Assembly (NCBI GenBank): GCA_002786025.1
Contig: NHNW01000001.1
Coordinates: 930,001 to 994,000, forward strand
Direction of reading: 5' to 3'
Length of the DNA: 64,000 nucleotides
Origin: Zasmidium citrigriseum
Lineage: Eukaryota > Ascomycota > Dothideomycetes > Mycosphaerellales > Mycosphaerellaceae
Notes under the pieces: model-generated
What the model was told of the DNA's origin: nothing
What the model saw: only the letters and a program-made list of their open reading frames with translations
Databases searched by the model: none
Position numbers and translations under genes: made by a program
Shown: positions 18,942 through 39,985 of the stretch, one piece after another
Layout of the letters: each line of letters begins with the position of its first letter
Numbering within the stretch: position 1 is the stretch's first letter

Positions 18942-21900
18942 TTAACGGCGCAGGTTGTATCTCCCGTGGCCCTTGTCAGGCACATGATCGCCTTGTGCTT
19001 CAAGAACTCGCGGCTGCAAGTTCCGCCGTCTGTCTTGCGCGACCACAATCTCCTCTGACTCGTCGGATCCGTCAGAACCCTCATCTACTTCATCCTGATC
19101 AGATACAAAGAGAGATTGGGAGGGCGCAATGTCCGTCGTCTCATGATCATCGCTTGGTCGAACGTCTTCCGAGTCGTCGTCTTCCGAGTCATCGTCTTCC
19201 GAGTCGTCGTCTTCGCCGTCACCATCCTCACTGCCATCCATGTCTGTTGCCTCATCAGACTCGGAGTCCGCGCCCTTCGATTCTGGCGAAATCCTCAAAT
19301 GGCGGATTCTGCATGACGGGTGAGTTCGTCGTGGGAGGCATCTCGCAATGTCTGGCCAGGTCAGACCCATGGACCTCAATGTTGTGAGAAGCTCGTCTTC
19401 CACTTGAGTCCATCTATCTTGCCCGTTCCCCCTCGCTAGAGTCTGCACCGTTCGGAGACGCTCGTACGTCGTCCGAAGGTTGTCCTCACTGTCACTTTCC
19501 AGCTGACCCACAACGTCGTCCCAATCGTGTCCCGCTTTGCTGCTGGACAGAAGCGTTTTCAGGTCATGCGACGTCAGGGATGGCTCTTTAGGCTCCTTGG
19601 GCTTCTTAGGCTTCTTAGGTGCCACCTTTACAAGCCGGGCGTAGCGTTTCCTGCAATTTCGGCCATTGCGACCAGGCAGTCTCTTCGCAATTTCAGGAAA
19701 CGAATCCGGTTGCGGCCGACGATTCCTCCCAGCCCTCAGCACTTCGTCTTCTGCGGCCGTCCAGGGCGCGCCCTGGGTCGATGTTTGCGCTGCTGTTGGA
19801 CTTGTGTTATTGATCCCTGATGATCGCGACACGGGGATTCGGGCCCTCTGGAGATACCTCTTCAATTGGTAGACTCGACCCCTGATGGACTTTTTCTGTA
19901 CCCCCGGGAAGAAGTGGCTGACGGTCGATATTGGCACCGCTGTGGCGTATTGCGGATCTCGCACAACGCTGATGAAGCCTGGAGGGTAAATAACGGCGTC
20001 AATTCCCAGATCCTGTGGTGTTGGATCTCTCGAATGCCAGTCGTGTTGCACGGGCACCTCTTTGAGCTTGTTCTTTGCCCACCATGTCTCAAAACCAGCG
20101 GTGGCGAGCTTCGTCCTCACCTGTTTAATCCGAGCCTTCAGTGTCGAATCCTCGAGGCCGTCAGGGAAGCACTTCATAAGCCTCTGGTGTGCCATGTTGC
20201 CCTTGGCAGTCAGCAGCAAGTTGATGAACGACTGAGGGTAGATCGCTGAGTCCATCCCCAAAGCCTCTGGTGTGGCGCCTTGCTCGATTGGCAAGTGCTC
20301 CAATTCCTCATCTTCTTGTAGACTTATAGTCTGCGGTGGTCTTGTACAATCATCGCAAATGAGGTCGGCCCGCTGCTCTCGATCACGACGCCACTCTTCT
20401 CCCGTTGTAGTGGACTCACATTCCCGACATGCCTTGTCGATATCAAGCTTGGGAATGAAAGTGTGCCGATGCAGGCCATTCATCAACGCATGGCCGATGG
20501 GAAATGCCTCCGAACGATTGGGAAGGTCCTCATAGTCCTCAACAAGGGCCGGTAGTCGCTCTTCCTTCCAGTCCGACACCTCGCGCATGAGATGCACAAG
20601 AGCCATTTGATCCTTGCGGACCCGCTGAATCTTTGCCTTTGGATTCTTGATGACCTCGTCGTAGATCTCTGAAGTCAGGTCCAGATCGAAGTGCGCCCAG
20701 GCGATGCCATCGGAGATATGTCGACGATGCTTTCTCTCCTTGAATACCGCAACTCCTTCCACGCAGCTCACTGGCATCGCTATGGTCATTCGAAATCTGA
20801 GCCAGCTGTACATCTTGACCATTCTCAAGATGCTTGGAGCGTCCGTGGTCCAGGCATCCAAGCCGACGACCAGGAATGTTACCAGCGCTGCCGCGCCTCT
20901 CTCTTCTGCGATCCGGTTTGCATCTTCCAGGATCTCCTTGACATTCTGGTCTGCTTCTGTCACCTTGCCCGAGTCGTCTTCAAAGACTTCAGAATGACTC
21001 TTGCGGATCTTCATGTTGTAAATGTGACACATGGCCAGGTCATCGGCCTCCATCTCATTGGCTTTGTTGATCAATCTCGCTGGCTCGGCACGGCCACCGA
21101 ACACTAGGTCCCACATGTCAACGCTCTTCGTGGCAGCGTCTTTGAGCATCTGCTCCTCGTCACCTTCTCGCTTGTGACTGAACCTTACTGGCACAATCAT
21201 CAGGTATGGCCGGGTCTGTATGTCGTCGGCCATGTCGATGTAATGAGGATACTCTTTCTGCGTCTCCTTGCCGTACCAATCCGCCGCAGAGTCGCTTGCA
21301 TACAAGTTTTTCATCTCGTGGTCCTTCAGACGAAACTTGCCAGTCTCACGGTCCTCAATGACAATCGCGCCATTCTTGCGCTTGTTCACAACATTAAGCA
21401 GGCCATATCTGTATCTCTGCTTGTTGGGAATCCCATGCATGTGATTGAACGAAGTGTATCGCTTGACAAGCTCTTCAAAGGTCAGACCTTCTTGAGGGAC
21501 ATCAAGCAGCAACTTGACCACGATTTGCCGATAGCTGAGCATCTGCGCGGGGTGCTTCCGGCCGCTCTTGTCGAGCACAGCATTGAACAGATCTGGAGCT
21601 GGTCCTGTCGCTGTCTGGCCTTGAGCCACCATTTCAAAACTGTCGTTAACAGAAATAGTGGCATTGGACGACTCGACCTCCTGGCTTGCCGCCACTGCAC
21701 TCGCTGGCGGACCGGCCTTCCACTGTTCATGCAGCTCATCTTCCAGTGCGTCCTCGTCGCCGCAGACGCCAATGCCTCTCATCCATCGCCCAAGCCGCAT
21801 GATGATGCGTAGACGAAGAGTAGAGGCGTCGTGAAAGGCCTTGATCCCATCATCTCGGTACAATGCATCCATGAAGTTCTGGTATGCATGGACACCACAA

Positions 21901-24686
21901 TCAAAGCCGGTCCTCTGCTTGTAGGTGCCTTCGACCCAGATGAACCTCCAGTTGCCTTTGTGCATGCTCCATTCCTCTGGGGCGATTTCGCCGTAATGGT
22001 CGATGAGAGTGTCAATAAGACGCCGCATCTTGTCCTCAGCCTTGGCGCGGTACTCTGGATCGCCGTGCAGGGAGTCAATCATTTTCACGACTCCTCGATC
22101 TCGTCTGATGTAGAAGGCGTAATAATGATATCCGCAATGGTTGACGACACCATACACCCGGCGAACGTTGTCCAAGGGCTCGAAGGGTGGCCGGAAAGCA
22201 CCAATATCCGAAGTCAAATCCTCTTGCGATCGCGTGTTGTACAAGCTGTCCATAGACTGAGCGTCTGCAACGTTGACCGGCATAGACTCAGCGTCCGCAA
22301 CCTGCGCTGGTGGGTTATTGCCCTCCGCATCGCAATGAGTGGCCACAAGAGCTTCGATAACTCTGTTTGTGAGCATACGGCCCTCACGCAGAGAAAGCAC
22401 GTCCTCAACCGCCAGCTCCTTTTCGGCGACCTTCTTCTTACGTTTGCCGCCGTTTCGGCCGCCAAAAAACTCGTCGATCATCGACTTTAGGTTGACTTCA
22501 ATCATGGAAGGAGGCCCGGTCGGAAAGAAATTCGCCTTCTCCCAATGCCGGTAGACTTCATCGATATCGCGCTGCACTCCTGCGTTCAGACGTTTGAAAG
22601 CGTCCTGAGCTTGTGCCTTGGCTGGTCTCGTCGACGTGCTCATGCCAAAACCTGCATCGGTGACGACCTCTCCGCCGAATAGGGCCGAAATATCGTCAGG
22701 AGACTCGACTTGCGGCTTCTTGCCCTTCTTGTTCTTCTTGTCATCGAGAGGTCGAATGGAATCTCTGGGATAGTCCACTCCCATTCGTGCACTCATATCC
22801 TTCAGATACCGGAGACGGAGCTCGTTACATTGGGCAGTCAACTCCTTCCTGTCTGGCCAAACGGGCATTTCTCCAATCAGGAGGCCCAGGCTGATCGCAG
22901 TAGCCATTGTGCCGCAGTGGACAACGCCCTTCTGGGCCGTGGTCGGCTTCTTGTGGAAAGACCATCCCTTTTGTTGCCAATCGTTGCATGGATGCACGGA
23001 AAGCAGATTTGCAAAGACTGTCAAGACATTGCGACTCGTCTCATCGTGATCGTCCGATGGCAAAGTATCCCAGATCGATATCGAACCGACGCGCTCGCCA
23101 ACGTTCGACTCCAAGTCAGGCTCGATCTTCGCAGTGATCCAGTGCCAGCCAACGTTGAATGGTACAATCACGAAGGTGGCGTCGCCGTCGAGCACAGGTA
23201 GGTCCTTGAAGAATCCCTTCTGCCATGCGCCATTGGGTGGTGGCTGCGATACTGCCTCACGCATTGCGGTCAAGGCTCTTTGCTTGTCACCGCCGATGTC
23301 CAACCAGTGCTGCAGTTGAGAGGGGTTGGCGAGCTTTCCCTTTCCAGAATACTGGTCTCTGTACAGGAGAAGAATGTTGCCAATGATGGTGTCACCGTAC
23401 CAGAATGCTATCATGTCCTCGGGATTTGCGGGTGATGGGCGCATCGCCGACCAGTGGTTCAAGTCCATGTGGTCAAATTCCTCATCTGGTACGAGTAGGA
23501 CGTCGTAAGGATCATTCCATAGATGGTTGTCATCCACTTTCCCCTGGTAAAGCTTCACGACGTCGACCAGGATTCGGGCGAACTCCGTGCCGTTGTCAGC
23601 CTCCAATTCGAGTGCGGTGAGAAGGCCAGCAACTTCGTTGCGATTGGCTTCAGCCTTCCTCAGGGCGTCAGTGTTCTTGTCCGAATCTCCGCTGGTGAAG
23701 TAGCTTTCCCGCCAGTTGTCGTCGTCGTCTATTACCATGGCCGAGTCGATCGAAGACCCTGCGAGCTCGTCTGCAGGAGCAGATGAGGCAGGCTGCTCTT
23801 GACCGGTCGGGCTTTCCTGTGCTTGCTCAGCCTTGCCTGCCACTTGTGGCACGTCCTTCTCCTTCTTGATCGACACCGGAGACGGCAGCTTAGGCCTTTC
23901 AGGCTCGCCATGTTCCAAGGTCTTTGATGGCGGATCGATCACTTCGGCGGATCCCTCTGGTACTCCGTCGTCGTCCGCCTCTTTCACGATCTCCGGAAGT
24001 TGGGCTTCGATGTCCAGACGCGGCTTCTTCGAGCTGTCTTCAGCCTCGTTCTCGCGAGGTCGTTTCTCGCCAACGTTGTGTTCGACGTTTGGAACTGGGG
24101 ATTGCGAGACAGGAGGCTGTTCTGGATCCAGGACTGCCGGTTGGACCGCATGAGCACACTGGGGCTCCGAAGCTTGACCGTCGTCGATGTCGGTCGCCTT
24201 TCGATGTGAGCGATCGAGCACAGTCTTCTTCCCTCCCTTGCCGCGCGTGGACCGGCCCTTGGGCAGAACGTTCATCCCAAACGATTTGAACCCGTTTTGA
24301 GAAATGGTTTCGGCGAGACTTGAGGTCTGACGAGTTCCGCCGACTGGATCTCGTCCAATTGAACTCTCATTGCCGTTCAATCGGGCCTGTCCTGTGTCTC
24401 GACCGCGCACGACTGGTCGCCTGTCAGAAGGCTGAGGCTCGTATCCTCCATGTCGACCTCCTGGGCCGGGCAAGCTTGATCGTCCGCTGGCTTGCGGTTC
24501 ATGATTGCCTCCACTTTGGCGTAGGGGCTGTCCGGCGGCCTGATACCCACGACCGGCACCGTCTACCGGACGTGATGGGCCACTTGGTCGTGGAGCTGAC
24601 CCACGTTCGGTGGCCCTGTGATTCGGACCAGCCGCTGGGGCCCAACGCTGATCACGCTGGAAGCGGTCATTTGGCAGATGTGCCAT
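18942..24686 (-). CDS. Giant protein with two Ulp1/C48 peptidase domains and Myb-type repeats (1914 aa)
   Basis: A single exon. Residues 1-420 are disordered and charged. Domain 1 (about 430-620) has the Ulp1 order: GWHWI (His515), ISIWDTL (Asp540), and Cys591 in VVHCGTM with a Gln just before. Domain 2 (about 800-960) has GYHYYAFYI (His854), MIDSL (Asp871), and Cys930 in TGFDCGVHAY, again with a Gln before. Both triads look complete, so both could cut isopeptide or Ubl-precursor bonds as deSUMOylases do. A winged-helix-like stretch (about 1020-1110), a CxEC...CDDC pair (about 1480-1530) and two Myb/SANT-like repeats (WTAAEDEVL, Trp1642; WTQVEDEL, Trp1759) follow, then an acidic tail of repeated DDDSE units. 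This suggests a nuclear, DNA- or chromatin-bound Ubl protease. Two copies of a hairpin repeat sit 12 nt upstream of the ATG. Confidence 0.85.
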   Translation of the reverse strand: MAHLPNDRFQRDQRWAPAAGPNHRATERGSAPRPSGPSRPVDGAGRGYQAAGQPLRQSGGNHEPQASGRSSLPGPGGRHGGYEPQPSDRRPVVRGRDTGQARLNGNESSIGRDPVGGTRQTSSLAETISQNGFKSFGMNVLPKGRSTRGKGGKKTVLDRSHRKATDIDDGQASEPQCAHAVQPAVLDPEQPPVSQSPVPNVEHNVGEKRPRENEAEDSSKKPRLDIEAQLPEIVKEADDDGVPEGSAEVIDPPSKTLEHGEPERPKLPSPVSIKKEKDVPQVAGKAEQAQESPTGQEQPASSAPADELAGSSIDSAMVIDDDDNWRESYFTSGDSDKNTDALRKAEANRNEVAGLLTALELEADNGTEFARILVDVVKLYQGKVDDNHLWNDPYDVLLVPDEEFDHMDLNHWSAMRPSPANPEDMIAFWYGDTIIGNILLLYRDQYSGKGKLANPSQLQHWLDIGGDKQRALTAMREAVSQPPPNGAWQKGFFKDLPVLDGDATFVIVPFNVGWHWITAKIEPDLESNVGERVGSISIWDTLPSDDHDETSRNVLTVFANLLSVHPCNDWQQKGWSFHKKPTTAQKGVVHCGTMATAISLGLLIGEMPVWPDRKELTAQCNELRLRYLKDMSARMGVDYPRDSIRPLDDKKNKKGKKPQVESPDDISALFGGEVVTDAGFGMSTSTRPAKAQAQDAFKRLNAGVQRDIDEVYRHWEKANFFPTGPPSMIEVNLKSMIDEFFGGRNGGKRKKKVAEKELAVEDVLSLREGRMLTNRVIEALVATHCDAEGNNPPAQVADAESMPVNVADAQSMDSLYNTRSQEDLTSDIGAFRPPFEPLDNVRRVYGVVNHCGYHYYAFYIRRDRGVVKMIDSLHGDPEYRAKAEDKMRRLIDTLIDHYGEIAPEEWSMHKGNWRFIWVEGTYKQRTGFDCGVHAYQNFMDALYRDDGIKAFHDASTLRLRIIMRLGRWMRGIGVCGDEDALEDELHEQWKAGPPASAVAASQEVESSNATISVNDSFEMVAQGQTATGPAPDLFNAVLDKSGRKHPAQMLSYRQIVVKLLLDVPQEGLTFEELVKRYTSFNHMHGIPNKQRYRYGLLNVVNKRKNGAIVIEDRETGKFRLKDHEMKNLYASDSAADWYGKETQKEYPHYIDMADDIQTRPYLMIVPVRFSHKREGDEEQMLKDAATKSVDMWDLVFGGRAEPARLINKANEMEADDLAMCHIYNMKIRKSHSEVFEDDSGKVTEADQNVKEILEDANRIAEERGAAALVTFLVVGLDAWTTDAPSILRMVKMYSWLRFRMTIAMPVSCVEGVAVFKERKHRRHISDGIAWAHFDLDLTSEIYDEVIKNPKAKIQRVRKDQMALVHLMREVSDWKEERLPALVEDYEDLPNRSEAFPIGHALMNGLHRHTFIPKLDIDKACRECESTTTGEEWRRDREQRADLICDDCTRPPQTISLQEDEELEHLPIEQGATPEALGMDSAIYPQSFINLLLTAKGNMAHQRLMKCFPDGLEDSTLKARIKQVRTKLATAGFETWWAKNKLKEVPVQHDWHSRDPTPQDLGIDAVIYPPGFISVVRDPQYATAVPISTVSHFFPGVQKKSIRGRVYQLKRYLQRARIPVSRSSGINNTSPTAAQTSTQGAPWTAAEDEVLRAGRNRRPQPDSFPEIAKRLPGRNGRNCRKRYARLVKVAPKKPKKPKEPKEPSLTSHDLKTLLSSSKAGHDWDDVVGQLESDSEDNLRTTYERLRTVQTLARGNGQDRWTQVEDELLTTLRSMGLTWPDIARCLPRRTHPSCRIRHLRISPESKGADSESDEATDMDGSEDGDGEDDDSEDDDSEDDDSEDVRPSDDHETTDIAPSQSLFVSDQDEVDEGSDGSDESEEIVVAQDRRRNLQPRVLEAQGDHVPDKGHGRYNLRR

Positions 24687-24698
24687 TTTGATATTAAA

Positions 24699-24790
24699 GG
24701 GAGCAACACCCGAAAGGGTGGCTCAAAGACTCCGAAGAGTTGGGTTTTGGGAGCGACACCCGAAAGGGTGGCTCAAGGTCTCCGAAGAGA
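24699..24790 (-). repeat. Two tandem copies of a 50-bp double-hairpin module in the Ulp1-like gene leader
   Basis: Copies begin at 24699 and 24749. Read on the mRNA strand, each has a small hairpin with a UUCG loop (UCUC-UUCG-GAGA in one, ACUC-UUCG-GAGU in the other) followed by a two-tier hairpin: outer stem GAGC/GCUC, inner stem CACCC-UUUC-GGGUG. The copy nearest the gene ends 12 nt before the AUG. The same module occurs before the helicase gene at 32137. Stem bases change in pairs between copies, which supports a folded RNA. Confidence 0.8.
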
Positions 24791-25415
24791 AGTCGATGGC
24801 GGCAGCGGAAACGCTGCGAACAAGAGTACGATGACGAGAACACCGCACGAACAAGTGTGGCCTATACCACCGCTGAAGAGAGAAGAAGAAGAGAAGAAAG
24901 AAGCTCGGCGTGCGCGTCTCGATATCGCGTCACCGCCATTCGGTTGTAGTTTGGGAAGTCGCCAGGCTGCCCAGCTTCGCTCCTTCCATCTTGCCTCGTG
25001 AGGACCCATCCCAAGCCCCACACCACGTGGTGATCCTGGAATCAATCTTGTCGCGCCGTATCTGCTGGACTTCCATCATTGTTCAAAATGTGCAGTATTG
25101 GCTGCGAGTATATTGTGTTGTGGCTGGCAGCTGGCTTGACCAAGGGGTTTGGTGGGCGGCCAAACTTCGCGACTGTCCGATTTGTTCTGTGACCAGCTTT
25201 CAGTGTCCTTCCTTGATGCAACGACCTCAACGACATTACTTGTTGCTCTTGAATTGAATGCTATCGGCTCCAGCATTGCTTCGTATTCATCTCTCCCGTC
25301 TAGCAGTTGGTGGCAGCTCTGCAGTAGACAGTGTCAGCTTTTTGAGGTCCTGTATGAGTGGTATCGCTGTTGGACTCCGGTCTGTTCATTGACCTACAAA
25401 TGCAATTCCACCCAC
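24791..25415. other. Upstream region of the Ulp1-like gene
   Basis: Purine-rich stretch (24870-24910) then unique sequence. No gene seen; it should contain the promoter and any remaining 5' leader of the Ulp1-like gene. Confidence 0.5.
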
Positions 25416-26173
25416 TTATTCAGGACCGTGTCTAGCACCGACTTTTCTACAACCTCCTCGCCATCGCTGCTCCGCTGGTTTTGCTTGTGCACTTACCTGC
25501 GCATGCCGCTCTCTTGACGTCTTGAACAGTCCGCGCCATCGGAAGTGCCTTCCAGGAGAGAGGTTGTCAGCAAGAGTTGGGATCGACTGAACTTCAGAAA
25601 ATGCTTCTGTTCCCTCGCTACGGCGCTCAGCATGCTGGTACAAGATTTGGCCCGTCAGTCATTGCATTCTGATCATTGCGACTATGGTTGCATGACATAC
25701 TGAGTGATCCTCCAGGATGCTCATCTGGTTGCTGGCAACGCTAACACAAAGACTGTAAACAATCAATGTCTGGTCGTCGTCTGTAATCGCTGTTGTGAAG
25801 ATCAATATGATCTTATCAGCCCTGGTTGCAAAGACGTCAGCAAGCGATTGTTTGTGTGCCTTCATTCGTTCCACCGACATTGAATCCATCCTCCTTGCAA
25901 TGATAGAACCTTGGAATTGACTTCGTTTTCTCGGAGGGATACTATACCCAACGCCGCCCTCGTTCCATAGAAGATAGCCGCCAGAGTAATACTCACGCGG
26001 CGGACGGAGTTGGCGGATTTCATCACGCTCTTATGAGTTGCTACCTCTTCTGCCGTCGAAAGATGTTTGGAAGCTTCTGCAGTTCTACACTCGGTATCAG
26101 TGGGAGCCTCATTCTCGATTATACGACAGACCTCTTCAACTTTGCTGGTCCATCTTTGTGTGGCGACTGCCAT
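25416..26173 (-). CDS. Unrecognised small multi-exon gene
   Basis: The first exon, 26173 to 25997, starts with a good ATG and encodes MAVATQRWTSKVEEVCRII and further charged helical sequence ending SVRR at a GTGAGT donor. An acceptor GGGTATAG follows at about 25942. Downstream coding-like segments are MKAHKQSLADVFATRADKI (about 25860-25700) and SIPTLADNLSPGRHFRWRG (about 25600-25500), separated by introns with GTATGT and GTAAGT donors. The phase from exon 1 to the next segment does not fit without a stop, so either one border is wrong or the gene is damaged. No family recognised. It is on the same strand as the helicase and Ulp1-like genes. Confidence 0.4.
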
Positions 26174-26910
26174 GTTTCCAGCCGATCGCAGAAGTCTGGG
26201 AATTGTGAAGGATGTTCATTCCCCGTGGCGCAGCCAATTGAACGTGGTACTTGGAAATCGGCCATAGGCTCACGTAGGTTGATTTTATCCGAGGTCAATG
26301 CTGCGTGGGTTGCGTACGACTCAAGCTGGGCTAGATCGAATGTTAGGTTGACCAGTACTTTCGGTGCGTGGAAGTACTCAGTATTCCGGAACAGTGGTAT
26401 GAGCGAGAGAACGACGTCCGCGAAGATTAGCCAGCCTTTGACATTGCTACCACATGAGCACCTCTCCCCTCCACCACTCGAAGTTTCGACAGAGTCCCTC
26501 TGCAGCGCCAGCAGCGTCCCATAAACCTCATGCCCATGTCCATTCCTCTGCTCATCAACTCATCACCTCATTACCGCCACCCGTGTCTCTTTGCCAGCTT
26601 CCTCGGTGTCATCAGCAATCATCTCCAGACCTCTCTCTTGCTAGCCATCGCGGCCACATCGGAACGGCTCGTGCTCGTGAGGTCCTCGCCATCGTACAGG
26701 TTGGTCTCCGTGTAGGTCTAGAATGCCCATCAGTCAGTTCCTGTCTTCATCAAGTTGCAAATGAACTTGTACTGCTTACCGAGTCTGCAAGTTCTTGAGG
26801 CCATGATGGACAGCATCGCTGAGTCTCTTTGGACCATGGTTATCTCGGTGTGAGGCCAGACTATGCTGATTCTGACTACCAGTTGTGGTGATGATGGTGG
26901 ACCCATGTTG
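26174..26910. other. Region between the unknown gene and the F-box gene
   Basis: On the minus strand, 26910-26650 continues the F-box reading frame after one stop, with a plausible intron (GTAAGC donor, CTGAC branch, TTCTAG acceptor) and a coding-like end ENLYDGEDL-type segment in a shifted frame (TETNLYDGEDLTSTSR). This looks like the eroded 3' half of the F-box gene. No other gene seen. Confidence 0.4.
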
Positions 26911-27298
26911 TTACGGGAGTCGCGCAGGCTTTCCACATTTGATTGGTGTCTTTCCCTTTGGCGAGTAGTAGTGGAGGGGCTCGGTCGGAATGGGCTTGAA
27001 CAACAGCGCCTGCTGGATCGGCGTCGAGCCTTCGATGACGGCTTGCCATTTGCGACAAACTCGCTGGGCACTGACGAGGAGGTTCTGGGCTGGCATCTCC
27101 AAGAAGATGGCTTCGAGGAGCTCAGTGGTGGCGAAGACGCGGTCAGAGACAGAGGGATCCGCGGTAGCGTCCTGTTTGACATCAGTGGAGTGAAACCCAT
27201 ATCTTGAGTGCACGACATACCTCATCTGCCTCCCCCTCCATGTTGCTGGTCATCGGTGTGGTGAGTGGCTCGGATGCTGTTGTTGACGTGGATTCCAT
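26911..27298 (-). CDS. F-box protein, short and probably truncated (112 aa)
   Basis: Exon 1 is 27298-27221 (MESTSTTASEPLTTPMTSN...), exon 2 is 27171-26911, with a 49-nt intron (GTATGT donor, CTGAT branch, ACAG). Exon 2 carries the F-box: VFATTELLEAIFLEMPAQNL followed by LLVSAQRVCRKWQAVIEGS and QQALLFKP, typical of the large F-box-only families of Dothideomycetes, which act as substrate adaptors in SCF ubiquitin ligases through Skp1. Family members usually continue for 150 or more residues; here TAA follows at codon 113, and coding-like sequence resumes after it with frame changes. The remaining N-terminal domain could still bind Skp1, but I consider the locus a likely pseudogene. Confidence 0.6.
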
Positions 27299-27689
27299 CT
27301 TCGAAGGGCGTTCGTAGTAGTTGGATGGCCAATCTGATCGCCTCGTTGTGTTCAGGCACGTTGAGAGGGTGATACAGACAGTATTTGGGCCACTCAATGT
27401 CATCGCATTGGTGTTCAATCGAATGGCGCTCTGTCTGGACAGTCTGCGGAAGAGGTTGCGGAACAGCGTGTGGGAGACCGTATGTGAGAGCTTGTTACGG
27501 AAGAGCTTTTCGATCGATGCTCGCCCTCTGCAGAATGCGAGTGCTGGACCGTTGGTGCCATTCAGTGAAGTCGCCGGTCCGCTTGTCGATAGTGAAGGCT
27601 CGGTGTTGGAGGCATTCAATTGCAACCAAAGGTTGGAATTCGGGTCTTGTGAGAGTTTGTCGAGGTGGAAGCTTCACGCTTCGTCTCTG
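27299..27689. other. Upstream region of the F-box gene
   Basis: Overlapping short frames on both strands; none has a domain or splice support. Probably the promoter of the F-box gene. Confidence 0.4.
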
Positions 27690-28196
27690 CTATTGCGAGA
27701 GCCTGCTTTGGATCCAGAGCTCTTGAGCACTAGCTTCATGTAGGTCGTTGGAAGGTGGATAGTCTCGAAGCAAGCTTTGGGGCGGTTTGCGGTTCATTGT
27801 TTGTTGAGCGTGCAGTTCCGTTGCTGCCCGGCGTTAGACTTCCGCGTGTGCAATACGTACAGGCGATAACATACCAAATTTGTGGGGCCTTTTCGATTGA
27901 ATGATGAGACTCAGGCCGTACTGATCTTCCACGTCACTGTCTTCAACCTCATTGAGGTGGGCGAGAGAAGACAGCTGCTTGGTCGCGTCTCGTAGTTGAT
28001 CGGCCATCAGGCGTAGAAGATGGAGTGAGGGTTTCGGTTTGGCAGTCTTCGGAGGTTCAGATTTCACGGCTTGGCTGGCGATAAGCCTTTCGATGTTTAA
28101 AAACGGTGCTCCTCCATCGCACCGAATCGTAGTGCACTCCGACAACGTCGTGTCCTTCAGCACTCCCGGGAGTTTGTTCGAAGCGATAACTCCTAA
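27690..28196 (-). CDS. Unrecognised coding segment, possibly the C-terminal end of a broken gene
   Basis: Two segments join well: 28196-27875, containing KRLGVIASNKLPGVLKD and, further on, LRLMADQLRDATKQLSSLAH, and 27823-27690, ending ASAQELWIQSRLSQ and a stop. The intron between has a GTATGT donor, CTAAC branch and GGGCAG acceptor. No ATG lies at the head of the frame; upstream is an acceptor-like GGTGTAG right behind the helicase stop codon. It may be a separate small gene with an unseen first exon or a relic. The sequence is helical and charged; no family recognised. Confidence 0.4.
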
Positions 28197-28241
28197 ACGC
28201 TTCTACACCCATGTCAGCAAGAAAGGATCAGACACTTACAT

Positions 28242-31200
28242 TCAAGTGCCACCACGTCCACCACGAGGACCACGAGGAGCCCCACGGTTGTTGCCAGGAC
28301 CCCCACGGTTGTTGCCTGGACCCCCACGGTTGTTGCCAGGACCGCCACGAGGAGTACCACCGCGACCACCGAGGCCGCGCTGGAGGTTCTGGCGGTGGCG
28401 GCCCTGGTTGCGAGAGTTGCGGTTCTCTTCCACCGAGTAGTTGTCCACCGTAGGGTTGGCCAGGGCTCGACCCTGCATGGCGTTTCGACCATCTCCACGG
28501 CCACGACCCCGGGTGCTCTGTTGCTGGTTGGCGGGAGGCTGTGTCAGCAACGAATCCCATTCGCTACGCACGTTCAAGCTGGGTTGGCCAGCAGTCGTGC
28601 GCAGCCCACGGCCGAAGTCTCCATACGACATGAAGTCCTTGTGATCCTTGATGTCGTAGAGCATCTGGCCAAACTTGTGGTATCTGCCGTTGGACCAGAC
28701 GAGTCGGTCATCGCCGTCGAGAAACGCTTGCCACCACTTCAAAAAGTTGCCAAAGAGGACCAGAGACTGCTTGCAACGAGAAAGGCCAACGTTAAGTCCA
28801 TGCGACTCATAGACGAACCCCAGATCCAGAGGCTTGCCAGCTATATTCCTCGTCATGGAAACAAGGACGATCTTGGCCTCGGCACCCTGGATCGCTCGCG
28901 TACTGGACACAGTGATGCGGTGTCCGGGCTTGCTCAGCTTGCGCTTGACGAGTCGCTCCTTGATGTAATTGACTTGCGCCTTGTAAGGTGCCAAGATCAA
29001 GAAGTCCTTCTGCGTGAGCTTGACGCCGTCCTTGGGGGCTTCTTCCTTGAGTGCCGCTTCGACGAGATCGCAGATGGCTTCGGCTTCCGTCTTGTTGATG
29101 TAGGAAGTACCGAGCTTCTCAGACTGGACTTGATCGCCGCTAACGTCCACGGCGACGCGACGGCGACCGTTCCAAGCGGGACCAAAGCGAGAAAGGACTT
29201 GCTTCCACGTTGTCCACTCAGGCGTGACCTCGCTGGTCTTCGGGTGATCCTTCAGCGGGTTGGCCTTGTACCAGAGCTTCGAGATCATCGCGGAGAGCTC
29301 AGGATGCATGCGATGCTGAACGTTGAGTTGCACCATGGCATCGGTCAGCTCACCAGATCTGCTCAGTAGGCCGAACAAAGACTTCTCCAGGACAGCAGCA
29401 TACTCGTTGGCTCCCTTGGATGGAACCATTGGCTTCAACTGCTGCTCGTCGCCAGCCAGAATCAAGAGCTCGAGATCTTGGAGGAAAGCGCCGACAGGAG
29501 TGAGCGCATCTGGCAGAGACGTGATGGCAGCCTCATCGCCGACGACGACCTTCGGGCGGTAGTGCCTCCTCAGCAAGCCGTGGGCAGAAGAGCTGTTCGT
29601 GCAGAAGACTACATCGACGCAGTTCTGGAGGTAGTACTTGCTCAAATCATCCTCGAGCTCAGCGCGGCGCAGATTGAGCTCCTTCTTCCGGTCCTTCTGG
29701 AGGCCGGTCTGCTTGAGCTCATTGACGATTCGCTTAAACTCAAGCGCCTTGTCGTTCATGGCGTGTCCACGGTCTCCAGCCCAGAGGTCGATCTTGGCGC
29801 CTCGCTTACGATAGAAGCCGTACTCCGGGTTCTCAGGATCTTCGAGATGACCCTCTTCGTCGACAAGCTCCCAGAGCAGCTCCCTGGACTCATCAGCCGC
29901 TGCAGTTGCTGCGTCGGTAGCTGTCTCGTTTCCGCCCATCGAGACATCGCCGTCCGAGTCGGTCTTGCGAGCGGGACCAAGGAAGCTGCCACGGTACCGG
30001 ATAATCTCCAGTCGGGCCTTGCGATCGCCGACGCCCTTGTCGAATCCCTTGAGAAGCTCGTCGACGGCGGTGTTGGAGGGCGCGCAGACGAGGACCTGGC
30101 GACGACGGGATTCCTTCTCAGCTTCCAACAGCTTGCCGATCTCGATCAGCGCCTCGATGATGGCCGCGAGGGTGGTGCTCTTGCCGGTGCCAGGAGGTCC
30201 GACCAGGAGAAAGATTCCGTGGAGTGCCTGCCGAAGTGCCTTGAAAAGGGCCGTAGCCTGCATCTCGTTGAGGCCATGACCGAAAGTCTTGACTTTGGGC
30301 TCAATCGGCGTCCAGTGCTTCTCCTGGATCTCGTTGGCCAGGCTGCCGGCGTTTCGAGTGGTCGGAGGTGCGTGGAAGACCAAGTTGCCGATGTCCACGC
30401 CCTCACGAAAGCCGCCGCCTCGCTCAGGAATGAGACCACGCTGGATGGTCTCGATGGTGGCGCGGTGTCGAGAAGATGGAGTGACATCGTCCTTGAGCTC
30501 AACCTTGACCGCGATTTGGATGGAGTTCTGGCCGTCCGGAATGGTCAGCGGAGGACCCAACGCAGTACAGACAACTTCAGCGCCAGAGTTCCGGTGGTCG
30601 TTGATGGTGTAGCCATTGAACTCCAGAGCTCGACGATCGCCGCTGGCCATGATGGTGACACGCTTGTCGACTTCTACCTGCACGTCTGTCCCGGACAGGA
30701 CGTTCTCGGGCATCTTCAACTCGACAATGTAGCAGTTCTTCTGCCGGGGGTGCGGAATGAACTTGCCAGTCATCTGCTCGATGCCGGCGAAAGCAGCTCG
30801 GATGATCTTCGACTGATACTCGCGATCACGAGCAATGGACATGCGATATTCGAAGGCCATGGTCTCGACATCCGGGAAGCATTCTTCGACACCGGCGTAG
30901 GGGAAAGATGCCCATGAGTGAGGAGTTGGAGCCCCCATGACGGTACCGTCTTCCTCGACGAAGACGCGCCACTTCTTGACCAGCCAGCGCGGAACAGCGA
31001 GTTCCCATATCTGGCAGTATGCCGAGTCGATGTTGGGCTCGCCTTGGGGGATCTGGAGCCTATAGAACCAGTTGTTGCCGTGCAGAGCGCAAGCGTCAAA
31101 GGCGCACTTGACGTAATTCCAGAACGCATCAACGCACTTGAAGCCTCCGTCCGGGAACATGCGGTAGACACTGAAGTCATTCGTATCAAGCAGGCCGAGT

Positions 31201-32126
31201 ATCAACTCCTCTTCCTCGCTCAGGCAGTCCGGATCCTCTTTCTGGTACTGGCGCCACTTGGCCAGCAAAGTCTGGTCGACTCCCGTGAGCCGCGGACGAG
31301 TGGGCTGTGCACCTCGAGGAGTCGTGAACACCTCGGCGCCGAAAAGCTCGAAGCGGAATTCGAGAAGCTGGTTCTTCTTGTAGTGCTCTGAGAGCTCTGC
31401 GGCCTTCTCGCCGAGTTGGGGCAAGGTTTGCGCCAACTGACACCCAGCGCCGCCGATCTGCCAGCGGGAATGACCACTCTCCTCCCTAGCCACGCTGTTA
31501 GGGAAGACATGGATGATGGCCTCCTTCTTGTCGTCCTTTGTGCCGAGATACCAGACGTGGATGCGGACCGAGGGATGCTGGGAGTGCAGGTTCCAGCTGA
31601 GCTTGACCCTAGGATCGCGATCAGAGTTGCCCTTGCCCGCCAGACCATGGCCGAAAGCTTTCTTGTCCTGGTTCAGGACGTCGTAAAGCTTCTCGTCGTG
31701 AAACACGACCATGGCATTGGCCTTCTGGTCGACCCGCATGTTCACCTGCGGGTGCTTGAATGTCGCCCGCTCTGGGCCGTCTGCTCCACGGTAGTGCTGG
31801 TGGAGAATTGCGAGCTTCTCATACGCCTCCGAGCTGCCCTCCTGCTTGAAGACGGCTTCCCGAAAGGCGTGGCCGTACTCGAACAGAGCTTGCGCGCCGA
31901 TGACCTGTTCGCCGGTCGCGATGGTCTCCTCCATCATCTCTTCATCGACGTCCTCGCCGCCGCCCTGAGTCTCGGCGTTGACCTTCAGGCTGAGGTCTTC
32001 TTCCTCCTCTCCGCTCTGGAAGGTCAGAGCGCGGACTTGTTCTGCAATGTCCTTCTGACCAGGCATTGCGACGGCTGGACCGCTTGCGCTCTGGGGCGCG
32101 GGAGCAGGGACAGATGCGTCAGACAT
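28242..32126 (-). CDS. Upf1-like SF1 RNA/DNA helicase with RGG tail (1294 aa)
   Basis: A single exon. The start is the ATG at 32126 (MSDASVPAP); a GTG further upstream falls inside a hairpin repeat. Residues 1-620 are a lineage-specific region (motifs GNNWFYRLQIPQGEPNI, FEYRMSIARDREYQ) that is shared with the truncated copy at 38455. The helicase core follows: Walker A GPPGTGKST (Lys649), APSNTAVDELL, Walker B GDEAA (Glu865), motif III GDEQQL, QHRMHPELS, SSTRAIQGAEA, and motif VI NVGLSRCKQ. The order and spacing are those of the Upf1/Sen1-type SF1B family, 5'-3' helicases that remodel RNA and RNA-protein complexes. The C-terminus has RGG-type repeats (GPGNNRG three times, then RGGRGG), which bind RNA and are arginine-methylation sites in other proteins. 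Three hairpin modules precede the ATG. Confidence 0.9.
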   Translation of the reverse strand: MSDASVPAPAPQSASGPAVAMPGQKDIAEQVRALTFQSGEEEEDLSLKVNAETQGGGEDVDEEMMEETIATGEQVIGAQALFEYGHAFREAVFKQEGSSEAYEKLAILHQHYRGADGPERATFKHPQVNMRVDQKANAMVVFHDEKLYDVLNQDKKAFGHGLAGKGNSDRDPRVKLSWNLHSQHPSVRIHVWYLGTKDDKKEAIIHVFPNSVAREESGHSRWQIGGAGCQLAQTLPQLGEKAAELSEHYKKNQLLEFRFELFGAEVFTTPRGAQPTRPRLTGVDQTLLAKWRQYQKEDPDCLSEEEELILGLLDTNDFSVYRMFPDGGFKCVDAFWNYVKCAFDACALHGNNWFYRLQIPQGEPNIDSAYCQIWELAVPRWLVKKWRVFVEEDGTVMGAPTPHSWASFPYAGVEECFPDVETMAFEYRMSIARDREYQSKIIRAAFAGIEQMTGKFIPHPRQKNCYIVELKMPENVLSGTDVQVEVDKRVTIMASGDRRALEFNGYTINDHRNSGAEVVCTALGPPLTIPDGQNSIQIAVKVELKDDVTPSSRHRATIETIQRGLIPERGGGFREGVDIGNLVFHAPPTTRNAGSLANEIQEKHWTPIEPKVKTFGHGLNEMQATALFKALRQALHGIFLLVGPPGTGKSTTLAAIIEALIEIGKLLEAEKESRRRQVLVCAPSNTAVDELLKGFDKGVGDRKARLEIIRYRGSFLGPARKTDSDGDVSMGGNETATDAATAAADESRELLWELVDEEGHLEDPENPEYGFYRKRGAKIDLWAGDRGHAMNDKALEFKRIVNELKQTGLQKDRKKELNLRRAELEDDLSKYYLQNCVDVVFCTNSSSAHGLLRRHYRPKVVVGDEAAITSLPDALTPVGAFLQDLELLILAGDEQQLKPMVPSKGANEYAAVLEKSLFGLLSRSGELTDAMVQLNVQHRMHPELSAMISKLWYKANPLKDHPKTSEVTPEWTTWKQVLSRFGPAWNGRRRVAVDVSGDQVQSEKLGTSYINKTEAEAICDLVEAALKEEAPKDGVKLTQKDFLILAPYKAQVNYIKERLVKRKLSKPGHRITVSSTRAIQGAEAKIVLVSMTRNIAGKPLDLGFVYESHGLNVGLSRCKQSLVLFGNFLKWWQAFLDGDDRLVWSNGRYHKFGQMLYDIKDHKDFMSYGDFGRGLRTTAGQPSLNVRSEWDSLLTQPPANQQQSTRGRGRGDGRNAMQGRALANPTVDNYSVEENRNSRNQGRHRQNLQRGLGGRGGTPRGGPGNNRGGPGNNRGGPGNNRGAPRGPRGGRGGT

Positions 32127-32136
32127 CGTTAAAAAA

Positions 32137-32262
32137 GGGAGCGACACCCGAAAGGGTGGCTCGAAATCTCTAAAGAGAGGTAGAAAGGGAGCGACACCCG
32201 AAAGGGTGGCTCAAGATCTCCGAAGAGATGTGGAATGGGAGCGACTCCCGAAAGGGAGGCTC
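32137..32262 (-). repeat. Three tandem copies of the double-hairpin module in the helicase leader
   Basis: Copies start at 32137, 32187 and 32237, an exact 50-bp period. On the mRNA strand, the inner stem is CACCC-UUUC-GGGUG in the two copies nearest the ATG and CUCCC-UUUC-GGGAG in the distal one, a paired A-U to U-A change that keeps the stem. The small hairpin is UCUC-UUUA-GAGA in the first copy and AUCUC-UUCG-GAGAU in the second; the distal copy lacks it. The module ends 10 nt before the AUG at 32126. It is the same element as at 24699-24790. Confidence 0.82.
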
Positions 32263-33422: not shown

Positions 33423-35634
33423 CTACTCATGCTCATTCTCCGCGTCACCCACGAGCTCCCCCTTCCACTGCTCTCGCGTCTCGTTCACGTGCCGCCGCAT
33501 ATGAGCCCGCGCCTCGTCCGCGAACTCCGCCTCGTCGTGATGGAATCCAAGCGTAGTCATGACACTGACAAGATCAGAGGGTCTCAGCCTGCAAGAGCAA
33601 ACCGAACACCGTGTCGAGAATGGCGGTCATCGACGTATCACTGGTCCAGTCGCGGCCGGTGAGAAGAGAATGGCACACACGACCATGCGCTGAGATGTTC
33701 GGATGCATGATCTTGCTCACGAATCGAACTTCCGGTGGCTGGGATGGGTAGTCTTCGCCGGCGGACATGTACAGCATGAAGACGCCGGCTGAGTATGGCG
33801 ACTCATCCGGGCCCTGCATGACGATGCGCCAGAAGGAGATGTCGGAGGTGGAGACGTAGATGTCGTACTTGGGGTGAGAGCCGCCGGCAGCGATTCGCTT
33901 CATCTCGTTCATGAGGCGGGGAATGCGCTTGTTGGATCGACGAGCATCAGAGCTGCTCGAGCTCACCGGGCCAGTAGAAGCGGCAGTGAGCTCCACGACC
34001 TCGTCTCGCAAATTTCGATGCTGCTTGCCCTCTGGGTACTCATCGGCCGTGACGACAGTCGGTAGCGTGAGACGCCGAGAGTAAGAGAAGTGATTGATGA
34101 ATTGCGGGCGGTTGCGAGGGAGATCACGAGTCGCGGTAATGGAGGGCCGATGGGTGATGGACAAGAATGGTTCCATCTCGCAAATTGCCAATGCGTTTGC
34201 AAGCGAAGTCGGATGGAAGCGGTAGCAGCCAAGAACGTGTGAGAGGGTCTTCAGGTCCTTGTCCGGCTCGGAGCCGATGGAGATGCTGTCAACGACAATG
34301 CCACTCTGGAACATTCCCCAAGCGATATCGTGGCTCGTGCCAGAGGAGCTGGTATCGACTCCATCGCTGAGAACGATGATTCGCTTGCGGGCATCTGGAT
34401 ACTTCTCGGCGTACTCCAGCAGTTGATCCTTGGCAAGAGCAAGCCCGTCCCAAAGCTTAGTGTCGCCACTTGCTCTCATGTCGTTGGTCGCTCGTCGAAA
34501 GTTCTCCAAGGTTGGCGATGGTCTCATCTGGACGCGGCAGTTGGACTCGAAGGTCAGCAGGCCCACGTGAGTCTTGAACTGGTATGCAATCAAGCGGTTG
34601 ATCAGAGCATCAAACATTTGCTTGAGGACATCAAGGCGGCTGAGTCTGGAGGTATCTTCGGAATCGTCACGACGTCGCTTGCAAATCTGGACCTTGAGAA
34701 CCAGTGGCTGGTCGTTGTCTTCGTCATCGGCCTCTTCATCATCGGCATCTCCCTGCGTATCACGGAAGACTTTCTCATCGGTAAGCTTTCCGAAGCAATG
34801 AATAGGTGTGAGGAGGCCAGATAGCTGTTGGCTTGGATCATCGCAAGGAAACCCCACACCCCACCCGTCGCCGGCGTAGGACAGATCAGTCCATATGACT
34901 TGCTCATCCTGGAGCAAGATGGAATACTTGTTGAAGTAAGCCCTCCAGAACTTCCAGAGGATCGAGCCCTTGGTCTTCGTGGTGTTGCGTGGCATCCAGT
35001 AGCCAAACAGCGGTCGATCATGACCAAGGTATACCTTGATAAGAGCCTGCTCATCGGTAGTTGACGATGATGATGCGCCTGTCGCTGAAACCGCCATGGC
35101 ATCGTCGTCTGCCAGGCGAACGATCACCTCGTCGCCGTTCCGGAAGCCGACGAAGGAAAGGGTCATGAATGACGGACGAATCGTCTCAGAGTCGCGGACC
35201 AGCTCGAAGGCAATGTAACGAGCCTTGAGCCCGCGGAAAACAAGCTGATAGAGCTCGTTGACGGTCATGGAGGAAGGCACCTTACGCTCGAACTGGCCAA
35301 TTCTACTGGAGAACGTCAACGTAACGGTGCGCCGGCCATTCCCAAGATCTTGACCTTGGACCCATTGGGCAACAGCGGTCAAAACCTCTTCGTTTGCCTC
35401 CAGAGACGAATCCTGCGGTGGAAGACCGTGTATCGGCGACGACAGGCGTACCGCAAACCACTGTGCGATGCCCTGTCGAGAATACGTGAATCCGTCCGCA
35501 GCTTTGACAGCATCTTCCATCAGTGCATGTGAGACCGGGCACTTCAACTCGTGTGGCACATTCGTGATCGTCTCCGGAAGCGAAGGCAGAGTGTGACGAG
35601 CTCCAGACGGCACGGCCTCCCCTGGAGTCCACAT
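33423..35634 (-). CDS. U-box / Ubl-like / vWA / E2 (UBC) fusion protein, with a frameshift near the E2 C-terminus
   Basis: The uninterrupted frame runs 35634 to 33574 (686 codons). Order: U-box (about residues 25-75; VPHELKCPVSHALMEDAV, DGFTYSRQGIAQW), an E3-type domain that recruits E2; a Ubl-like stretch (about 100-175; MTVNELYQLVFRG, FRNGDEVIVRL); a vWA-like domain (about 300-470; GLLTFESN, IIVLSDGVDTSS) with a degenerate metal site; and a UBC/E2 fold (about 535 on) with PSQPPEVRFVSKIMHPNI and Cys654 in GRVCHSLL, the catalytic position. After FGLLLQ the frame stops, but the next frame continues at once with RPSDLVSVM, then FADEARAHMRRHVNE to a stop at 33423, an obvious E2 C-terminal helix region. 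So a one-base shift lies at about 33577-33591. E2 and E3 in one chain suggests a self-contained ubiquitin or Ubl ligase. Confidence 0.85.
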
Positions 35635-38454: not shown

Positions 38455-39985
38455 ATGTCAAATCCAATAGTCTCGTCCGTCGACCTGAAGGATCGAGGTC
38501 TCCTTTTCCACAAGGAGCTCTATACTGGCGCATATACCAGAGCAGAGGTCCTGTATCGACACTATCGAGATACGGACGGAGCATGTTTTCGCCATCCCAG
38601 CAGATTGAAACACGAGCTTGGAGGCCCAATCGCCGCCGTGGTCGCATTCCATGATCTGGGGATCGAGCGACCATTTGGGCAGCTTCTTGGACAAGAGGCG
38701 GTTCGAATAAAAGGGCAGACCCAGAGCAAATACCCTTCGTGCTCAATCCATGTGTTCTTTGGAGGCGAAGAGGATAGGCGAGAGAGCATATTCAGGATAT
38801 TTCCTGAGGGCCTTGAACGAGGGCTTGGTGGCGCTCTCCGCTGGGGTATTGGTGGAGTAGAACATGCCGTTGAGCTCTTGCCCAGAGACGATGTTCTCGA
38901 GCAGCTCTACGAGAATGATGAGCTGTTGGAGTCCTACTTGGATCTGGTCGGCCAGTGTGCCTCGACTCGTTTACAGTTGGCCGGTGTGATGGCCCGGGAG
39001 CTGGAGGACTGGAGATGGTAATCACCTCGACAGTCCCTTCAATGCTCGACAGGCAGCAATTGCGCATCCTGAGCCTCCTCGATACCTGTGAGCCGATTTT
39101 GTATCGCCATTGGCCAACCGCAGAACAGAAAGTCATCGACGAGTTCTACAAATGGACGAATAATGCGTGGAACATGTGCGCAGACCATGGGAATAATTGG
39201 TTCTACAGCCTCCAGATCCCAGAAGGCCAGCCACAAATCTCTTCTCCCAATTGTGGACTCGAGGACCTCGCTCGTCCACGCTGGCTGATCCAAGAATGGA
39301 AGATCATCATAGAATCTGGCGGTAGCATCAAGCAAGAGCCCATACCACAAAAATGGGCGACCTTCCCGGAGATCAACGGGAAGGCAAGCTTCCTCGACGC
39401 CGAGACTGTAGGATTCGAGTACCGCATGGCCATTGCGAGGGATGGTAACTTTGCCCAATCTCTTCGTCGTCGAGCCACTACCGAGACCATCCAGCATGGC
39501 GTACCTGTGCTTAGGCAGGGGATCGACATCGTCAATTTGATCCTCCATGCACCACCCACTATTGATGACACTGGCAGCATCTCCCACCAGTTTGACTCAG
39601 CCCAACACTCTGAGATACTCCACAGCAGCATGGACGAAAATGGTCTGAGCGAGAGACAGTCAGAGGCCCTGCAGAAGACTTGCTGTGAGACATCACCTGG
39701 AATCATCGCCACAACTGGTCCTCCCGGCACCGGTAAGAGCAGGGCTGTGGCGGCGATCATTGGGGCTCATGCGGCAATCGGCGACGGCATCCTCCCGTGG
39801 CCTCCTGGATGTCTCAGTCGCTCAATCGCTCTGGCAACGAGGGTCGCATTCTTGTTTTGTATCATTGATTTGGGGCGTTCAATGGAGAATGGTTCGGTGG
39901 ATATCGTAGAGTAAGCGTCGTACGAGTTGGAGTGCATCCCTTGGCGTGTCCCAAATTTACGCACGGACCATTAAGTGAATGTTCG
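38455..39985 (+). pseudogene. Truncated inverted paralogue of the SF1 helicase
   Basis: Two frames, 38455-39021 and about 38955-39914, are clearly related to the N-terminal 650 residues of the helicase at 28242: for example RHYRDTDGACFRHPS against HYRGADGPERATFKHP, GNNWFYSLQIPEGQP against GNNWFYRLQIPQGEP, FEYRMAIARDGN against FEYRMSIARDRE. A break at about 39020 can be bridged by a 35-nt GT-AG segment, which is shorter than a normal fungal intron, so a frameshift is as likely. Walker A GPPGTGKSR remains, but similarity ends about 20 residues later and no Walker B or later motif follows; a short helicase-like piece persists to about 39985. It cannot make a helicase. An expressed N-terminal domain alone is possible. 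Confidence 0.75.

Follow-up and report, generated by a model that had tools for sequence, protein, structure and literature searches.

Why should two neighbouring fungal genes carry the same hairpin-forming repeat directly in front of their start codons? The question is raised by a 64-kb piece of the Zasmidium citrigriseum genome (contig NHNW01000001.1, positions 930,001 to 994,000; hereafter the window, to whose first base all coordinates refer), in which five 50-bp units stand in two tandem arrays, array A upstream of a gene for an Ulp1-like protein with Myb-like domains and array B upstream of a gene for a UPF1/SEN1-like helicase. The evidence comes from one assembly (44,446,153 bases in 148 contigs) and from these two genes. 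The answer that we favour, and whose chances we put at about even, is that both arrays are one cis-element, a 5'-leader RNA fold that would restrain scanning or initiation on both mRNAs. Engineered in yeast, stem-loops adjacent to the AUG dim translation strongly; if the proposed reading is true, this locus would offer a compact and testable fungal case of co-regulation through leader RNA structure and a lead towards an RNA-binding protein.

Two tandem arrays with one leader plan

The units start at 24699 and 24749 in array A and at 32137, 32187 and 32237 in array B, with a period of exactly 50 bp; Tandem Repeats Finder calls array B only. Both genes lie on the minus strand and the orientation of the array relative to the gene is identical at both: the ATG of the Ulp1-like gene ends at 24686 and array A begins at 24699, leaving a gap of 12 nucleotides (nt), and the ATG of the helicase gene ends at 32126 and array B begins at 32137, leaving 10 nt. 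The commonest unit is on the plus strand GGGAGCGACACCCGAAAGGGTGGCTC followed by a tail that contains TCTCCGAAGAGA, which on the minus (sense) strand gives a long hairpin, GAGC-CACCC-UUUC-GGGUG-UC-GCUC, and a short palindrome, UCUC-UUCG-GAGA. The five copies, their coordinates, the period and the two gaps had been reported in a first-pass annotation of the sequence and were all correct on re-check; its statement that every copy holds a short stem is true of four of the five, the copy at 32237 being without one. Both leaders follow one observed plan, a series of three long UUUC hairpins with a short palindrome in each of the two gaps and the AUG next to them, and this plan is common to the two genes because an additional hairpin at 24802-24817 supplies the third long hairpin of array A. 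The stop-to-stop frames of the two open reading frames (ORFs) end at 24722 and 32210; since these upstream in-frame stops fall within both arrays, the arrays are non-coding for the two ORFs. The parts of the two leaders, with the names used below, are as follows.

24687..24698, minus strand: 12 nt separating array A from the ATG of the Ulp1-like gene
24699..24724, minus strand: core hairpin H1 of array A, mRNA strand GAGC-CACCC-UUUC-GGGUG-UU-GCUC, -12.6 kcal/mol
24729..24740, minus strand: short palindrome h1 of array A, mRNA strand ACUC-UUCG-GAGU
24749..24774, minus strand: core hairpin H2 of array A
24779..24790, minus strand: short palindrome h2 of array A, mRNA strand UCUC-UUCG-GAGA
24802..24817, minus strand: hairpin H3 of array A, mRNA strand GCAGCG-UUUC-CGCUGC, new in this work
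32127..32136, minus strand: 10 nt separating array B from the ATG of the helicase gene
32137..32162, minus strand: core hairpin H1 of array B
32167..32178, minus strand: short palindrome h1 of array B, loop UUUA in place of UUCG
32187..32212, minus strand: core hairpin H2 of array B
32217..32228, minus strand: short palindrome h2 of array B, UCUC-UUCG-GAGA
32237..32262, minus strand: core hairpin H3 of array B, in which the swapped A/T pair gives CUCCC/GGGAG and which has no short palindrome upstream of it

Confinement of the repeat to one locus

The repeat was observed at these two leaders only. Within the window CACCCGAAAGGGTG, with up to 2 mismatches allowed, occurs five times against 0.38 expected, a count reached in none of 100 shuffles. 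Across the assembly, for which all repeat counts are lower bounds, the 26-mer core with up to 3 mismatches occurs at five places, all at these two leaders (reversed control, 0), and a core pattern with the variable stem pair and the bulge left open returns the same five (control, 2 and 3 on the two strands). With array B as the query, a BLAST search of the assembly hit array A, at 83% over 101 bp, besides the query itself, and gave no other match up to E = 10. Dispersed genome copies, which the first-pass annotation had named as counting against its reading, were thus looked for by assembly-wide pattern and BLAST searches, and no further sequence copy came to light. A covariance model built from the five units and scanned over the window scored the same units at 59.5-76 bits and its next best place at 9.5 bits, and it found no hairpin module at the diverged helicase paralog pieces at 38500-39782. 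In 186,389 bases of this genome, comprising the window and 29 of 60 further loci, the two leaders are the sole places with two perfect tetraloop hairpins of the same loop (stems of at least 5 bp) within 120 nt.

Shorter parts of the unit were also searched genome-wide. The short palindrome with 3 mismatches stays at background level (103 and 86 places versus 89 and 94 for the reversed control), as does the loop-and-outer-stem pattern with 1 mismatch (21 and 18 versus 21 and 24), the five exact genome places of the latter being the known units. The 14-mer CNCCCGAAAGGGNG has 8 genome places (control, 3), of which the 3 beyond this locus each have one stem pair broken. In other sequence collections the core pattern matched one viral contig and three bacterial metagenome-assembled genomes, once each; the viral contig and one of the bacterial genomes were rejected as arrays, their surrounding sequence showing single hairpins by eye.

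A frozen core and diverged spacers

Substitutions are distributed very unevenly along the repeat. In the four full units (a1, a2, b1 and b2) the core varies in 1 of its 26 columns, the short palindrome in 4 of 12 and the spacers in 10 of 12, so that core and tail (1/26 versus 14/24) differ with a Fisher p of 2.7e-5 and palindrome and spacer with p = 0.036, the boundaries of these parts having been drawn on the same sequences that were tested. The fifth unit was excluded from this count for want of a short palindrome; when it is included, 3 of the 26 core columns vary. Neutral tandem duplication predicts that all parts should be alike, whereas here the spacers are widely diverged and the core is nearly frozen; the core therefore appears to be held by something. 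Since the letters of the stem are also nearly frozen, any selection would act on the letters as well as on pairing, and because core sequence is conserved almost as well as core pairing, sequence recognition is as likely as a role of pure stability. That the arrays are not a plain minisatellite, as the first-pass annotation had argued, keeps its support in this uneven substitution and in the additional hairpin with its new stem, but not in the covariation that had been given as its ground.

A sixth hairpin with a new stem and the same loop

A scan for perfect stems revealed, on the plus strand, GCAGCG-GAAA-CGCTGC at 24802-24817, adjoining the second unit of array A. The 6-bp stem of this sixth hairpin is unrelated to the core stem and its loop is identical to that of the cores (UUUC on the mRNA strand). 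It starts at unit column 54, against column 53 for the outer stem of a third unit, which places it at most 1 nt off; its loop is 4 nt off the position of the third-unit loop and its stem is shorter. Of 57 perfect hairpins in the window (at least 5 bp, 4-nt loop) six have a GAAA loop, these being the five cores and the sixth hairpin, and none has a TTTC loop on the plus strand. The stretch 24799-24848, picked once the hairpin was known, was put through 100,000 dinucleotide shuffles, of which 26 produced a GAAA-loop hairpin with a stem of 5 bp or more and 4 produced one of 6 bp or more. Searched as an 18-mer, it has one exact genome place, its own, and three elsewhere at 2 mismatches. A hairpin that keeps the loop and the approximate place and yet has a new stem is hard to square with a duplex site for a transcription factor, and it is a better argument for a selected fold than covariation.

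Predicted fold of the two leaders

The core hairpins of the repeat are each predicted to fold at -12.6 to -12.8 kcal/mol on the mRNA strand (about -12.6 to -12.9 on either strand), and the whole arrays at -42.9 (A) and -48.5 (B) kcal/mol on the mRNA strand. Scored against 40 shuffles each, the 140-nt folds on this strand have z values of -4.4 (A) and -4.9 (B); on a grid of 914 segments of 140 nt across the window (457 places on both strands) as low or lower a score is attained by 2 and 1 segments, respectively. The mean pair probability of the long hairpins on the mRNA strand is 0.85-0.99 in both leaders; on the plus strand it is 0.31-0.47 for H1 and H2 of array A, 0.62-0.90 for H1 and H2 of array B and 0.97-0.99 for the sixth hairpin. 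Local pairing, as modelled, would favour the mRNA strand to some degree.

The short palindromes behave otherwise than the first-pass annotation had proposed. On the mRNA strand the prediction does not favour local C(UUCG)G hairpins (pair probability 0.01-0.35); instead, the two palindromes of a leader are predicted to pair chiefly with each other and to enclose H2, the local, beads-on-a-string form being 3 to 5 kcal/mol weaker (-39.9 versus -42.9 for array A and -43.6 versus -48.5 for array B). An h1-h2 helix around H2 is thus predicted for both leaders.

A proposed leader fold that would hold down translation, and its rivals

The leader fold that we propose would consist of the UUUC stem-loops H3, H2 and H1, with the short palindromes h2 and h1 pairing mutually around H2 or locally. 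H1 would end 10-12 nt before the AUG and the scanning 43S complex would have to melt the stack to reach it, so that the default effect would be to lower initiation on both mRNAs together. A protein might also read the element, tightening or relieving the block; such a reader is suggested by how little the core varies and by the retention of the UUUC loop. By inference, the mRNA leaders would include both arrays, which would restrain translation and be bound by a protein, and the helicase may have a role on its own leader. GC stem-loops engineered by the AUG in S. cerevisiae are reported to have lowered expression by ~50% when their energy was -4.4 kcal/mol and by >99% when it was -15.8 kcal/mol, while mRNA levels changed little (PMC3765126). 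By analogy, a row of three hairpins would be expected to cause strong repression, provided that it is part of the mRNA. It is tempting to speculate further, although we consider this extension quite unlikely as a whole, that the three-stem leader with its UUUC loops is the target of a dedicated RNA-binding protein, possibly the RGG-tailed helicase, which would co-set translation of the helicase and the SUMO-protease-like protein as a miniature post-transcriptional operon, with the palindromes switching between local and long-range pairing.

Several results weigh against this reading. In energy the plus strand is no less stable than the mRNA strand, its 140-nt folds having z values of -3.8 for array A (4/914) and -5.0 for array B (1/914; a separate estimate gave -4.9), and since these values are comparable energy alone cannot pick the strand; the invariant loop of the long hairpins reads GAAA on that strand, and the local short hairpin h2 is better favoured there (0.60-0.75). 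For the segment 24687-24810, in which the sixth hairpin is cut, z is a modest -2.2 on the mRNA strand, where 6 of 200 shuffles are as good (plus strand, z = -2.4, 2 of 200 shuffles folding equally well), so that array A depends on the sixth hairpin for much of its structure signal. Depletion of ATGs upstream of the two start codons is not significant, with 0 in 250 nt against 1.1 expected (P = 0.29) and 0 in 400 nt against 1.4 expected (P = 0.20). Covariation is thin, too. The paired changes in stem bases described in the first-pass annotation exist for exactly two of 13 pairs in the five sequences: in letters of the plus-strand alignment, the inner stem of 32237 goes from A-U to U-A and the short stem of 24699 from U-A to A-U. 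Values as high as those observed arise in 38 of 500 column shuffles, which the covariation thus does not clearly exceed. Sliding the stem partners lowers pairing from 93.8% to 24.6-43.1%, as it would for any palindrome. Template switching could produce symmetric stem swaps in a single event, as set out in the available part of PMC8794818, and since both changes are A/T swaps that one such event could make, the case from covariation is weaker than first claimed.

The same properties can be read at the level of DNA or of history. A promoter element, in which the tandem dyads would be sites for a dimeric transcription factor co-regulating both genes, would account for a core conserved in sequence beyond its pairing and for an element common to two neighbouring genes, and the symmetric change from CACCC/GGGTG to CTCCC/GGGAG suits a dimer equally well. 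On general grounds, however, arrays at 10-12 bp from the ATG would need either near-leaderless mRNAs or sites past the transcription start, and the sixth hairpin swaps the entire stem and keeps only the loop, which a duplex site is not expected to tolerate; we therefore hold the promoter element to be unlikely, if worth keeping in view. An unlikely explanation, too, in our estimate is a functionless minisatellite, in which tandem duplication of a slippage-prone palindromic unit was followed by a single copying of a leader segment to the gene next door, with template switching keeping the stems perfect. It fits the exact period, the likeness of the two arrays and their occurrence at a single locus, and both covarying pairs, as within-stem A/T swaps, are compatible with template switching (PMC8794818, in part). 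What it fits poorly is the concentration of substitutions outside the core, the third hairpin of array A, with a different stem at about the same place, and the position of both arrays directly at an ATG.

Two further explanations would place the element elsewhere. The functional RNA might be the plus strand, as an antisense or divergent transcript with tetraloop hairpins across each promoter. The loop reads GAAA in all six long hairpins, which we take to be of the GNRA class, and the z values for array B and array A and the better favoured local h2 hairpin on that strand, given above, speak for it. Against this, the plus strand does not keep the local fold of H1 and H2 in array A (those of array B lying at the 0.62-0.90 given above), the four plus-strand frames tested between the genes have no Pfam matches, and the position of the arrays is tied to minus-strand ATGs; we regard a plus-strand RNA as very unlikely. 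Mitochondrial double-hairpin elements are compact two-hairpin units that are mobile and dispersed in mitochondrial DNA, and the arrays, with two hairpins in a compact unit, could be taken for a nuclear relative of them. Mobile elements should disperse, whereas all five copies lie at two leaders on one 1.85-Mb contig and none was found elsewhere, and we give this relationship hardly any credence.

Relation to known leader structures

The leader fold that we favour has its closest likeness in stem-loop and tetraloop modules engineered in yeast, which are also short GC-rich hairpins near the start codon (PMC3765126; PMC7445769; both in part). The energies of the core hairpins lie within the range that represses by 50 to >99% in yeast (PMC3765126, in part), and a study that placed a library 15 bases upstream of the start codon reported that tetraloops repressed beyond the energy-based prediction (PMC7445769). 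The yeast modules are engineered, whereas the arrays here are natural and tandem, have an invariant loop and occur in two genes. Structured RNA in fungal leaders has also been described for RPL12 and lysyl-tRNA synthetase, for which autoregulation by the encoded protein was proposed (PMC8216456, in part). Those structures are listed for Pezizomycotina with covarying pairs, in contrast to a repeat array seen at two genes in a single genome; neither 'tandem' nor 'helicase' occurs as a word in the main text of PMC8216456. Searches of the open-licence literature returned no fungal tandem-hairpin or stem-loop leader and no conserved fungal leader RNA of this form, in agreement with the first-pass annotation, which knew of no such element either. 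Leader hairpins themselves are already known; the new aspect is that they are natural, tandem and common to two genes.

The histone mRNA 3' stem-loop, which is bound by SLBP, has a UUUC tetraloop. The arrays resemble it in having a stem with this loop and differ in lying at the 5' ends of non-histone genes, in being repeated and in having different stems. No Rfam 15 family scored above its gathering cut-off in the window, and the histone family was absent from the Rfam lists at E up to 10 (7 and 11 matches). The best sub-threshold matches were group-II-D1D4-7 (21.5 of 34 bits) and sbrA (22.2 of 45 bits), the sub-threshold models being mostly bacterial, CRISPR-repeat or group II intron models, with one from a plant virus and one mammalian, and their scores fell well short of the respective cut-offs. 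A link to SLBP through the UUUC loop was set aside, the only PF15247 match in the genome being marginal (27.1-27.3 bits against a cut-off of 27). This match covers model positions 20-63 of 70 in an ORF that overlaps the end of an F-box ORF in antisense and has no PDB match to E = 10; the genome's single SLBP-domain match is probably due to chance.

The two genes and their neighbourhood

The two genes downstream of the arrays are the following.

18942..24686, minus strand: Ulp1-like (Peptidase_C48) protein with two Myb-like domains, 1914 amino acids (aa), downstream of array A
28242..32126, minus strand: superfamily 1 RNA-helicase-like protein with AAA_11 and AAA_12 domains, 1294 aa, downstream of array B

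By Pfam the two proteins have no domain in common. The helicase-like protein matches UPF1/SEN1-type helicases in PDB and its C-terminal tail is RGG-rich, this RGG-type tail being encoded by a 21-bp tandem repeat at 28275-28349. Diverged pieces of a helicase paralog lie at 38500-39782 on the opposite strand, ~6 kb from the helicase gene; they correspond to helicase residues 91-664 only, at 34-45% identity, and look truncated. The Ulp1-like protein has no full paralog among the genome matches, which include two matches of the Myb region only. By eye, it has protease-like segments at ~400-620 and 837-937 ahead of the Myb-like domains, and Pfam matches the second only.

A search of the leaders for TATA and intron motifs gave nothing decisive: the Ulp1 leader has a CT-rich tract at -217, and the helicase leader has such tracts at -273 and -158 as well as a single branch-point-like motif at -407. 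The 3.4-kb intergenic stretch between the genes (24830-28240) is without a long ORF, its longest fully internal stop-to-stop frame having 205 aa, and the nine frames tested in it gave no Pfam matches; it may represent a gene that has decayed or is split into several exons. The neighbour immediately upstream of the helicase gene, a 686-aa ORF at 33574-35634 (minus strand), encodes an unusual fusion of U-box, von Willebrand A and ubiquitin-conjugating enzyme, which together with the Ulp1-like gene gives a small neighbourhood of ubiquitin and SUMO flavour. Elsewhere in the window, Pfam matches include MutS, Mug190-like and other eukaryotic-type domains, and positions 1-2000 are AT-rich, with 36% G+C against 49-59% per 2 kb in the remainder. 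The strongest fold of the grid lies at 59781-59920 (z of -5.5 on the plus and -3.5 on the minus strand), inside the Mug190-like gene.

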